From assembly GCF_003324485.1 (NCBI RefSeq), contig NZ_QODK01000001.1:992001-1056000 (forward strand): a DNA stretch of 64,000 nt, written 5' to 3'. The notes under the pieces are model-generated. The model made no database searches, was not told the DNA's origin, and worked only from the letters and a program-made list of their open reading frames with translations. Numbering within the stretch: the stretch's first letter is position 1; the number at the start of each line of letters is the position of its first letter. Position numbers and translations under genes: made by a program. The DNA is from Cohaesibacter intestini. Its GTDB lineage: Bacteria > Pseudomonadota > Alphaproteobacteria > Rhizobiales > Cohaesibacteraceae. This document shows positions 71 to 40,848 of this stretch, one piece after another.

Positions 71-160
71 AGGATAAGTGTCGGTGATCCAAATGGTCAA
101 AAAGACACTTTTCGCGCCCTGTTGGCGGCGATGAACCCTGAAAAGAGGATGTGACAGCAG

Positions 161-13503: not shown

Positions 13504-14478
13504 ATGCGCGCGGTGCTGTGTGAGGCGTTCGGGGCGGCCGAAAATCTGGTTCTCAAAGAGATCGACAAGCCCGTGGCCGAAGAGGGGCAGGTGTTGATCC
13601 GGGTCCGGGCGGCGGCGCTCAATTTTTTCGACACGCTGATCATTCGCAACAAATATCAATATACGCCTGATTTGCCCTTCTCGCCCGCAGGCGAGATTTC
13701 CGGTGAGATCGAAGCGGTCGGTGCGGGTGTGGATCCGGCCCGCATCGGCGAGCGGGTCCTTGCCTATATCCGCTGGGGCGGAGCGCGGGAGTATGTGGTG
13801 GTCAATGCGGAGGAAGCCATCCTGATGCCCGAGGCTTTGGAGTTTGAGCAATCCGCCGGGCTGATGATCACCTATGGCACGACCATCTATGCGCTGAAAA
13901 GCCGGGCGAAGCTGCAGCCGGGGGAGACCCTTGCGGTGCTAGGGGCGGCTGGCGGGGTTGGGCTTGCGGCGGTGGAGATCGGCAAGCTGATGGGCGCGCG
14001 GGTGATCGCCTGTGCCTCGTCCGATGAAAAGCTTGATCTGTGCGAGGTCCATGGCGCTGATTTGCGGGTCAATTACAAGCTTGGTGATTTGAAACTGGCG
14101 CTGAAGGGCCTGACCAAAGGGCACGGGGTCGATGTTGTTTATGATCCGGTCGGCGGGGATCTGGCGGAAGCGGCGCTCAGGGCAACTGGCTGGTATGGGC
14201 GTTTTCTGGTGATCGGCTTTGCCTCCGGCACGATCCCGAAAATGCCGCTCAATCTGGTGATGCTGAAAAGTGTCGATCTGCTCGGCGTCTTCTGGGGCGA
14301 GGCAATCGTCCGCAACCCCGAAGAGCATGCACAGAATATGGCCTTGATCATGCAATGGGTGAGTGAGGGCAAGCTGAAGCCGCATTTGCACCAGAGCTAT
14401 CCATTAGAAGACACCGCCAAGGCCATTGCCGCCATTCAAAATAGGGAAGTGAAGGGCAAAGTGGTGATTACCCTTTAA
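13504..14478 (+). CDS. Zinc-independent MDR NADPH:quinone oxidoreductase
   Basis: A 324-residue medium-chain dehydrogenase/reductase of the quinone oxidoreductase class. It has the N-terminal GroES-like domain, no catalytic zinc ligands, and a Rossmann domain with the motif AVLGAAGGVGLAAVEIGKLMGA around 140-161 and DVVYDPVGGD around 210. It ends with the family's typical REVKGKVVITL. The ATG at 13504 is preceded by GGGAGGAAAGC, a strong ribosome-binding site; five codons upstream there is a second ATG that would cover it. Likely substrate is a quinone or enone; not specified by sequence. Confidence 0.9.
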   Translation: MRAVLCEAFGAAENLVLKEIDKPVAEEGQVLIRVRAAALNFFDTLIIRNKYQYTPDLPFSPAGEISGEIEAVGAGVDPARIGERVLAYIRWGGAREYVVVNAEEAILMPEALEFEQSAGLMITYGTTIYALKSRAKLQPGETLAVLGAAGGVGLAAVEIGKLMGARVIACASSDEKLDLCEVHGADLRVNYKLGDLKLALKGLTKGHGVDVVYDPVGGDLAEAALRATGWYGRFLVIGFASGTIPKMPLNLVMLKSVDLLGVFWGEAIVRNPEEHAQNMALIMQWVSEGKLKPHLHQSYPLEDTAKAIAAIQNREVKGKVVITL

Positions 14479-17490: not shown

Positions 17491-17576
17491 GCTTTCGGTG
17501 TTTGCAATGCAAACACCTGTCGCTGAGCGTGCTGTGCTTGACGCGGCATGGCTATGCGTTTGGCTTTGCCAAACGC
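17491..17576 (-). repeat. Composite palindromic repeat (B-A unit) in the purH 3' untranslated region
   Basis: Read on the minus strand, a B hairpin GCGTTTGGC-AAA-GCCAAACGC (17576-17556) starts immediately after the purH stop codon. After 38 bases an A hairpin GGTGTTTGCA-T-TGCAAACACC (17517-17497) follows, and then the terminator. Conserved single-stranded words accompany them: GCATAG after B and CAGCGACA before A. Three further units or part-units of the same family lie after leuD at 40009-40244. No coding capacity. This looks like a REP/BIME-type intergenic element. Confidence 0.75.
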
Positions 17577-19190
17577 TTAGTGTCGGAAGTGGCGCATGCC
17601 GGTCATGACCATGGCGAGGCCGGCTTCATCCGCCGCATCGATGACGTCCTGATCACGCATGGAACCGCCAGGCTGGATGACCGCCGTGGCACCCGCAGCA
17701 GCGGCAGCCAACAGACCATCGGCAAAGGGGAAGAAGGCGTCAGAGGCGACGACGCAGCCTTTGGTCAGCGGCTCGGCCATGCCTGCGGCTTCGGCAGCAT
17801 CTTCGGCCTTGCGGGCGGCGATGCGGGCGGAATCGACCCGGCTCATCTGGCCTGCGCCAACACCAACGGTGGCCCCATCCTTGACATAGACGATGGCGTT
17901 TGACTTCACATGCTTGCAGACGCGGAAGGCGAATTTCAGGTCGGCCAGTTCCTGCTCGGATGGCTGACGCTTGGTGACGATCTTCAGATCGAGATCATCA
18001 ACATTGCCATTGTCGCGGGACTGAACCAGCAGGCCACCGGAGACGGACTTGACGGTGGTGCCTTCCTCGCGTGGATCAGCGATGCCGCCGGTCAGCAGCA
18101 GGCGGAGATTTTTCTTGGTTGCGATCAGCGCTTTCGCCGCGTCGGTGGCGTCTGGTGCGATGATCACTTCGGTGAAGATCTTGATGATTTCGGCGGCGGA
18201 TTCTTCATCAAGGGTCTGGTTGAGGGCGACGATGCCGCCAAAGGCCGAAACCGGATCACAGGCCAGTGCCTTTTCGTAGGCGTCTTTCAGGCTGGCGCCG
18301 GTGGCCACGCCGCATGGATTGGCATGCTTGATGATGGCAACCGCGGAGGAAACCGCCGGATCAAACTCACTGACCAGCTCAAAGGCTGCGTCGGTGTCGT
18401 TGATGTTGTTGTAGGAGAGCTGTTTGCCCTGCAGCTGGGTTGCGGTGGCCACACCCGGACGGGTGGAGGCGGTTTTGTAGAAACCTGCCTCTTGGTGTGG
18501 ATTTTCGCCATAGCGCATCACTTCGGCCAGCTCGCCACCAAAGGCGCGGTAGGTTGGGGCTTCGATCGCCAATTCTTGCGCAAACCAGCCAGAGATGGCG
18601 GCATCATAGGCAGCGGTGCGCGAGAAGGCTTTGGCAGCAAAGCGCTTGCGGGCTTCGTATGGCATGCCGCCATGCTCATTGATCAGAGCGAGCAGTTCGG
18701 CATAGTCGCTTGGGTCAACCAGGGTGGTGACGAAAGCATGGTTTTTGGCAGAGGCGCGGATCATGGCCGGGCCGCCGATATCGATATTTTCAACGGTGGT
18801 CGCATAGTCGGCGCCCTTTTTGATGGTCTCTTCGAACGGATAGAGATTGACCACCACAAGGTCGATTTCCGGGATATTGTGCTCTTTCATTGCAGCCGCA
18901 TGGGCTTCGACGGTGCGGGCACCGAGCAGGCCGCCATGGACGCGGGGATGCAGGGTCTTGACGCGGCCATCCATGATTTCCGGGAAATCGGTGATTTCGG
19001 AAATGTCCTTCACCGGGATGCCAGCCTCTGCGATTGCGCCTCTGGTGCCACCGGTGGAGATCAGCTCAACGCCCTTGTCGGCCAGAGCCTTGGCGAGGTC
19101 GATGATTCCGGTCTTGTCGGAAACGGAGAGCAAAGCGCGCTTGACGGAAGTGATTTCCGGCGCGGTAACAGAAAGAGGAGCTACGGACAT
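17577..19190 (-). CDS. purH: Bifunctional AICAR transformylase / IMP cyclohydrolase
   Basis: Catalyses the last two steps of purine synthesis to IMP. The 537-residue product has the N-terminal MGS-like cyclohydrolase domain (about 12-160; [48 protein letters not shown]) and the C-terminal transformylase domain ([41 protein letters not shown], ending GMRHFRH). Full length. It is the last gene of the minus-strand run rsmB - heparinase - purH, an arrangement common in Hyphomicrobiales. An unusual palindromic repeat begins at its stop codon. Confidence 0.97.
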
Positions 19191-39966: not shown

Positions 39967-39991
39967 AAAAAGCCGGGCGGTTGGCCCGGCT
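39967..39991 (-). terminator. leuD terminator
   Basis: AGCCGGGC (39967-39978 region, stem from 39971) pairs with GCCCGGCT (39984-39991) around GGTTG; five A residues on the plus strand (39967-39971) give the minus-strand T tract. It lies past the leuD-associated repeats and ends the leuD message before leuB. The stretch 39799-39966 should hold the leuB promoter. Confidence 0.75.
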
Positions 39992-40008: not shown

Positions 40009-40244
40009 GCTCTCGGTGTTTCCCGGTGGGAAACACCTGTCGCTGATGGGCTGGGGCTCTCGGTGTTTTCCTGTCGGAAATCACCTGACGCTGATGGTCC
40101 TGTGGGTGGGGTACCATTGCTATGCGTTTCGCGGAGCGAAACGCTGGGTCAAGCTCTCGGTGTTTTCCTATAGGAAATCACCTGCCGCTGATGGGGCGGA
40201 GAATGCTGCAACTATGCAGAGAATTTGGCACAGCCAAATTCTCT
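40009..40244 (-). repeat. Array of A and B palindromic repeats in the leuD 3' untranslated region
   Basis: In minus-strand order after the leuD stop: B2 hairpin 40244-40218 (12-pair stem around AATTTGGC, three-base loop, overlapping the stop), A3 40182-40159, B1 40144-40124 (GCGTTTCGC/GCGAAACGC), A2 40085-40062 and A1 40037-40015 (GGTGTTTCCC/GGGAAACACC). B to A distance is 35-38 bases in each pair, as at purH. Flanking words are conserved: CTCGGTG before and CACCTG-CGCTGATGG after each A, CTATGC before each B (plus strand). Loops and stem arms vary but remain paired. Confidence 0.8.
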
Positions 40245-40848
40245 AGACCCAAGGGCGCTCTGCTTCCATGCCTTTTTCGAACTTGTCGACATTGCCGATT
40301 TTTTCCATCGACAGGCCGATATCGTCGAGGCCTTCGATCAGGCATTTCTTTTTGAATGGATCCACCTCAAAAGCGATCTCACCACCGTCCGGGCCCTTGA
40401 TGACCTGATTTTCCAGATCGATAGTCAGAGTGGCGTTGGCACCGCGCGAGGCGTCGTCCAGCAGCTTGGCATGGTCTTCTTCATTGACGATGATCGGCAG
40501 GATGCCGTTCTTGAAGGTGTTGTTGTAGAAGATGTCGGCAAAGCTGGTGGAGATCACGCATTTGATTCCGAAATCAAGCAGGGCCCAAGGGGCATGCTCA
40601 CGGGACGAACCACAGCCAAAATTGTCACCAGCCACAAGGATCTGGGCGTTGCGATAGGCGTCCTGATTGAGGACGAAGTCGGTATTCTCGGAGCCGTCCT
40701 CATTGTAACGCATTTCGCTGAACAGATTGACGCCGAGGCCGGAGCGCTTGATGGTCTTGAGGAACTGTTTCGGAATGATCATGTCGGTGTCGATATTGAT
40801 CAGGGGCATCGGTGCGGCAACCGCGGTCAAAGTGGTGAATTTTTCCAT
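40243..40848 (-). CDS. leuD: 3-isopropylmalate dehydratase, small subunit
   Basis: With LeuC isomerises 2- to 3-isopropylmalate in leucine synthesis. The 201-residue product has [22 protein letters not shown], the swivelling-domain motif [18 protein letters not shown] and [16 protein letters not shown]. leuC is not in the window. Upstream neighbour is argC (69-base gap, same strand). Its 3' untranslated region carries the palindromic repeat array and its stop codon lies inside the first hairpin. Confidence 0.96.

Follow-up and report, generated by a model that had tools for sequence, protein, structure and literature searches.

A REP/BIME-like family of two-hairpin palindromic units at gene 3' ends in Cohaesibacter and a few other Hyphomicrobiales

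The stretch analysed here (hereafter the window) comprises 64,000 nucleotides (nt) of Cohaesibacter intestini DNA (assembly GCF_003324485.1, contig NZ_QODK01000001.1, positions 992,001 to 1,056,000). Behind its leuD gene lies an array of palindromes of two different kinds: H1, the upstream hairpin in the transcript direction, and H2, the downstream one (B and A, respectively, in an initial annotation made from the sequence alone); H1, linker and H2 together are called a unit. The units are dispersed repeats with borders, are positioned at the ends of upstream genes, have covarying stems and occupy orthologous sites patchily. They probably represent a new, non-autonomous palindromic DNA element resembling repetitive extragenic palindromic (REP) sequences and bacterial interspersed mosaic elements (BIMEs). 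The interpretation offered in the initial annotation is partly supported; what it missed is that units dock at stop codons, tRNA ends and 23S rRNA ends.

The leuD array and the purH unit

The five-hairpin array behind leuD is confirmed as observed: the reported order B2-A3-B1-A2-A1 on the minus strand corresponds to H1-H2-H1-H2-H2 between the leuD stop codon and the terminator. A single unit, spanning 17576-17491, follows purH. The features are:

40243..40848, minus strand: leuD, 3-isopropylmalate dehydratase small subunit, the upstream gene (Pfam Aconitase_C)
40218..40244, minus strand: H1a (B2), a 12-bp hairpin with its 5' end inside the leuD stop codon
40153..40194, minus strand: H2a (A3), core 40189-40153, conserved feet CATCAGCGGCA and GAGAGC
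40124..40144, minus strand: H1b (B1), a GCGTTTCGC/GCGAAACGC hairpin, followed by ATAG
40056..40097, minus strand: H2b (A2), core 40092-40056
40009..40049, minus strand: H2c (A1), core 40044-40009, a lone H2 without its own H1
39971..39991, minus strand: canonical intrinsic-terminator-like site downstream of the leuD array
17577..19190, minus strand: purH, the gene upstream of the single unit (Pfam AICARFT_IMPCHas and MGS)
17556..17576, minus strand: H1 of the purH unit, beginning at the first base past the stop codon
17491..17529, minus strand: H2 of the purH unit

The hairpins had been placed between the leuD stop codon and its terminator. This holds at the downstream end, with the terminator at 39991-39971, but not at the upstream end, where the start of H1a overlaps the stop codon (40245-40243). 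Similarly, the proposed pairing of each B with an A is seen in two full units; because H2c has no H1 of its own, the array amounts to two units and a half. The end of H1 and the first stem base of H2 are separated by 35 nt in leuD unit a and by 38 nt in leuD unit b and the purH unit, in agreement with the spacing of 35-38 initially given for both places.

Folding of the array stretch yields -116.2 kcal/mol, compared with -73.56 (standard deviation 4.44) for shuffled sequences (z -9.60), and none of 200 shuffles was as good. Strict core patterns gave 2 and 4 matches in the whole window genome and none in the reversed-pattern controls, whereas a looser core pattern was noisy: among the matches listed, there were 18 (5 reversed) in the window genome and 10 (15 reversed) in genome G033. 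The nearest named LeuD relatives were two Cohaesibacter records with 86% identity, the genome's own record possibly being omitted.

Structure and covariation of the unit

Most full units are about 83-93 base pairs (bp) long. H2 has the feet AGCGNCAG on the 5' side and CGARAGC on the 3' side, exact in 48 and 31 of 55 units, respectively, with GATAGC among the common 3' variants. The stretch from H1 to the foot measures about 31 nt in most Cohaesibacter units and about 7 nt in several G120/G150/G040-genus units.

Both stems covary strongly. Across 54 distinct units, 96.8% of stem cells are paired, 17 of the 20 pairs have changed on both sides, and covariation is 0.410, whereas shuffles give 0.138 and slid controls no more than 0.099. 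In a second set of 50 distinct rows, 95.2% of cells are paired, two-sided changes occur in 17 of 20 pairs and covariation is 0.420. The structure guided both alignments, and a few rows of the second are reverse-strand or doubtful. Among orthologs (35 of the 55 rows, in 8 groups, compared pairwise and hence not independent), 170 double and 42 single changes stay paired and 52 are broken, against 48.7 double and 194 broken changes in shuffles. Together with the further copies found by covariance model, the covarying stems bear out the initial proposal of a two-part REP/BIME-like family.

H2 has CACCGAGAG in common with the tRNA-Val anticodon arm, and on inspection by eye a tRNA-derived origin of H2 was considered, as was a hammerhead-like core; neither was adopted.

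Copies and distribution of the family

Two covariance models were used: R1, built from 6 hand-picked units, and R2, built from 55 matches (E <= 2e-5, 35 sources). The many intergenic copies envisaged in the initial annotation did not materialise, as R2 returned only 11 matches at E <= 1e-4 in the 4.8-Mb window genome: 10 units and the lone H2. These are found at purH (1), leuD (2 and the lone H2), era (2, the second without the 5' arm of H1), prs (2), a gene that we take from its sequence to be saccharopine-dehydrogenase-like (1) and tRNA-Val (2); the purH, leuD, era and prs host genes were assigned by Pfam.

Within the order, R2 found units in 22 of 397 genomes, comprising 13 of the 18 Cohaesibacter genomes and 9 of 379 others from six further families. 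At a looser limit (E <= 0.1), R1 found units in 20 of 61 genomes. A strict H2 pattern applied class-wide matched 10 of 385 genomes, by eye mostly by chance, with clear hairpins in the window genome and G538 only and a partial one in G466. When R1 was run on 80 named leuD loci, just two weak matches were obtained (E 0.059 and 0.13), so leuD there is without a model-visible unit. A weak match at window positions 13860-13946 (E 0.0075), antisense within a zinc-dehydrogenase gene, was taken as chance; the model E-values are therefore generous.

BLAST searches with the unit gave no match, or a match to the tRNA part only, among plasmids (250 records listed, none covering 80%), and no match, or weak partial matches only, among phages. 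No Rfam family matched the window at gathering score, and a known Rfam RNA family was rejected on this basis; when 4 loci were scanned at E <= 1, units were touched by just two Thr_leader matches (E 0.35 and 0.76; locus L068), far below gathering score. The element was not found described in the literature, as far as the listings and available passages show, and to that extent the initial failure to match it to a named family stands.

Position at gene 3' ends

We hand-picked 71 array starts, with that of L216 placed by eye at a truncated first unit; the prophage-associated variant (see below), hairpins embedded in insertion sequences (IS), the contig-cut L217 and further copies at 23S sites were dropped. 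Borders were sought upstream on the unit's own strand only, and it is within this scope that the assigned sites show sense orientation. By this procedure, 34 array starts were assigned to the stop codon of an open reading frame (ORF), 19 to a tRNA, 5 to a tRNA 3' fragment (one of these fragments, at L218, cut by the contig end), 3 to a 23S end and 10 to none. As many as 47 of the 71 lie -3 to +4 nt from a same-strand stop codon or tRNA end (26 ORF cases at -1 to +2, 16 tRNA cases at -3 to +3 and 5 tRNA fragments at +2 to +4), and 3 more lie behind 23S. Nine others are 6-13 nt from the border (the ORF of one, L212, is possibly spurious) and two ORF-assigned starts are 35 and 54 nt from the stop. 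Three of the ten unassigned starts (L101, L226 and L207) have GCACCA 2-3 nt upstream, by eye.

Many of the Cohaesibacter sites are orthologous to one another and so not independent; the distinct ones there are purH, leuD, era, prs, cheZ, glnA, the dehydrogenase gene, two tRNA-Val and 23S. In other genera, unit-bearing tRNAs include Ala, Leu, Lys, Met, Ser and Gly. Weaker units in the spacer between the 23S and 5S rRNA genes adjoin the 3' end of 23S (L235-L239, in G014, G002 and G007); R1 gave four equal-score matches in G002 and three in G014, two in each genome being inspected. A strict terminator rule was satisfied within 150 nt at 13 of 28 coding-sequence sites.

Orthologous sites, decay and tandem growth

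A full unit is present behind purH in 4 and behind cheZ in 6 of the 18 Cohaesibacter genomes. At cheZ, G011 and G015 retain H1 only and G014 an H1-like remnant, and several purH flanks contain decayed-looking remains (by eye); nothing is recognisable in the other purH and cheZ flanks printed. Of two named Cohaesibacter, one carries a different palindrome right at the leuD stop codon and the other carries none. In two Cohaesibacter, another palindrome (AGCATATTT..CGAAAA) likewise starts right at a TAG stop, at L107:3604-3700 (leuD) and L425 (purH, G008).

GTAG-tagged REPs are reported to supply a TAG stop codon (PMC3733652, in the passages available). At cheZ, the six occupied sites have TAG (4) or TAA (2), and the 12 others have TGA, TAA and TAG (4 each), three of these last TAG sites having H1 or an H1-like remnant. 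The stop codons of the four occupied purH sites (TAA 3, TAG 1) do not fit, so that supply of TAG by the element itself is suggestive rather than proven.

Genome G213 contains the unit as a repeat of about 93 bp dispersed over several sites: excluding the contig-cut L217, 25 of 45 copy pairs align from unit position -4..+2 to 91..101 with 77-86% identity. In the tandem arrays at L076, L083 (cheZ) and L105 (era), the second unit begins within H1 and has lost the 5' arm of that hairpin, suggesting that duplication has repeatedly followed one mechanism. At L210, L211 and L212 (G213), units are joined to an apparent part of another palindrome (ending GGAAGTCT) in a BIME-like mosaic.

Prophage, island and insertion sequence contexts

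A related variant, in which a different first hairpin is followed by GACGTCGA or similar and then by H2, occurs in prophage-like gene gaps (by eye):

L277:2608-2679 (G000:C4:410107-410178), and L278-L283: prophage-associated variant

In the window genome, the H2 of this variant falls, in frame, within the first part of a primase-polymerase gene (Prim-Pol, D5_N). Among the loci fetched from IMG/VR, 5 of 113 core matches had a stem of at least 6 pairs, the remainder being taken as chance; stemmed H2 is carried by four contigs (L343, L385 twice, L386 and L393), of which L343 resembles the prophage stretch L278, and L386 resembles L393.

At L208 and L209 (G213) and L230 (G040), units lie behind a tRNA 3' fragment that, by eye, adjoins an integrase-like ORF, an arrangement that an island inserted between the tRNA and its unit would produce. 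At three loci of G015 (L099, L244 and L245), an H2-like hairpin of about 40 bp interrupts a transposase frame that we take to be IS6-like.

The REP-associated tyrosine transposase (RAYT) that the initial annotation had in view was not found: the Y1 (REP-type) transposase family PF01797 has no match in the window genome or in seven other unit-bearing genomes (G007, G013, G014, G016, G026, G037 and G040). It is present in 15 of the 41 genomes searched, several unit-bearing Cohaesibacter included (for example, G006 and G012).

Nature of the element

An element of the kind we favour, a REP/BIME-like palindrome spreading as DNA, would have dispersed in few copies per genome through Cohaesibacter and some other Hyphomicrobiales, landing, or surviving, right where RNA genes and ORFs end on their 3' side; tandem amplification at the site and later decay would have followed its arrival. 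An enzyme acting in trans may move it, the stop codon may be provided by the 5' end of the element (often TAG), and its hairpins, once transcribed, could protect the RNA upstream or cause it to be trimmed, effects that REPs have in E. coli. The composition of the stems bears on this reading. We counted G.U and A.C pairs in 45 of 55 rows of set A6 and 33 of 52 rows of set A7, having dropped duplicates, IS-embedded hairpins, named reverse-strand matches and any row whose feet could not be recognised. In set A6, the main one, 814 of 850 cells are Watson-Crick, with 10 G.U, 11 A.C and 15 other, whereas 20 tRNA acceptor stems from the same loci contain 10 G.U and no A.C in 140 cells. Fisher's test of unit against acceptor stems (cells not independent) gives p values of 0.0049 for A6, 0.14 for A7 and 0.021 pooled. 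Near-pure Watson-Crick stems in which G.U is no commoner than A.C favour a DNA palindrome over an RNA regulator; double changes also outnumber single paired ones among orthologs (170 to 42). With moderate confidence, we read these counts as palindromes kept perfect at the DNA level, for example by being moved or corrected as hairpins, rather than by selection for RNA base pairs. The second set, A7, is less clear in this respect.

Several observations weigh against a mobile DNA element. No mobilising enzyme was found in a search that covered Y1 only, and a REP family would be expected to have more copies. In set A7, G.U exceeds A.C (16 and 6, with 25 other, of 638 cells; 8 of the G.U fall in one pair), and 20 of the 45 G213 copy pairs align over a shorter length or extend into the flanks. 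The constant position is compatible with an RNA function too. The main rival is a cis-acting RNA module at RNA 3' borders, selected at housekeeping genes and tRNAs, in which H1 would block 3' exonucleases or mark the end and the H2 internal loop (GNCA/GARA) would bind a protein or nuclease. Such a module accommodates the 0-4 nt spacing behind stop codons and tRNA ends, the copies behind 23S, the conserved feet, the location of units between stop codon and terminator and the strong folding. It sits poorly with the absence or reduction of the unit at the same genes in sister species, the variation of the stretch from H1 to the H2 foot (about 7 to about 31 nt between genera) and a G.U count no higher than that of A.C in the main set, and we regard it as possible, if on the unlikely side.

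A bolder form of the mobile-element reading, in which the palindrome is directed to the 3' borders of transcribed genes by a reading of RNA or translation ends, parasitising expressed genes without breaking them and perhaps being spread by phages, is in our view unlikely. Copies behind tRNA 3' fragments beside an integrase-like ORF (L208, L209 and L230) and related hairpins between prophage-like genes, both seen by eye, could instead indicate a recombination or attachment site (integrase att or attC-like) marking cassette or island integration at tRNA and gene 3' ends; given the many different tRNAs and genes occupied, with most tRNAs intact, and tandem units without a cassette between them, this is quite improbable. 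Ordinary terminator hairpins or chance palindromes would share the placement in 3' untranslated regions, but neither H1 nor H2 is followed by a T tract in the window, and the leuD array has a terminator of its own further downstream; conserved feet, family members in other genomes, covariation, the pattern controls and folding compared with shuffles also speak against them, and we rejected this explanation as scarcely credible. With docking at three kinds of 3' border and patchy presence in sister species, insertion, decay and RNA effect of the favoured DNA element are testable at defined sites: purH, leuD, cheZ and tRNA-Val.

Comparison with known palindromic repeats

REP-class repeats are common, and the present family bears on how they choose their sites and on how classes without a transposase move. 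In the broad sense, the present family agrees with REP/BIME: it is a short, mostly extragenic palindromic repeat with several copies per genome, and copies adjoin ORFs on the 3' side, 26 of the 71 array starts being -1 to +2 nt from the stop. The GTAG-tagged REPs and BIMEs of E. coli and Pseudomonas are likewise short palindromes near ORF 3' ends, often paired or clustered; according to an earlier study cited in a passage of PMC12306157, translation is downregulated by REPs whose distance from a stop codon is below 16 nt. Unlike these, the present units combine two dissimilar hairpins in a fixed order and are arranged head to tail, carry no GTAG tag, have no RAYT in the window genome and also occur at tRNA and 23S ends, which the passages available on GTAG REPs do not mention. 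By eye, no consistent GTAG precedes H1 at the 71 sites, the flanks being CTAG, ATAG, AAAG, TAAG and others. A RAYT-borne REP was rejected because the window genome has no Y1 transposase.

The CGTC-tagged REPs, which include some Rickettsia palindromic elements (RPEs), share with our units their presence in Alphaproteobacteria and closeness to ORF 3' ends; the passages available of PMC3733652 describe them as mostly alphaproteobacterial, apparently without a dedicated transposase, near ORF 3' ends and in some cases intragenic. Their features (a CGTC end, an 8-9 bp stem with AT first and a CCA tail) were not seen by eye in 55 units. In the prophage-associated variant, GACGTCGA or a similar sequence separates the two hairpins, but the remaining CGTC-REP features are missing.

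Rhizobium-specific intergenic mosaic elements (RIMEs) are about 100 bp long and contain two palindromes. Compared by description only (PMC2573895, in part), they resemble our units as intergenic mosaic repeats of the Hyphomicrobiales. In the related genus Bradyrhizobium, the repeats Br-REP1 and Br-REP2 also form hairpins in 3' untranslated regions, and further palindromes flank Br-REP1 (PMC5082802, in the passages available); they differ in their copy numbers (about 200 and at least 50, respectively), and their consensus sequences, as printed there, do not match H1 or H2 by eye. An archaeal palindrome has a similarly fixed place, about 10 bp behind tRNA genes, but belongs to an archaeon, consists of one short motif at tRNA genes and is thought to be a maturation signal (PMC5217627, as far as available). 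The unit family is REP-like in place and form, yet by the defining tags it is neither a GTAG nor a CGTC REP, and its tight docking at gene ends, above all tRNA ends, is unusual.
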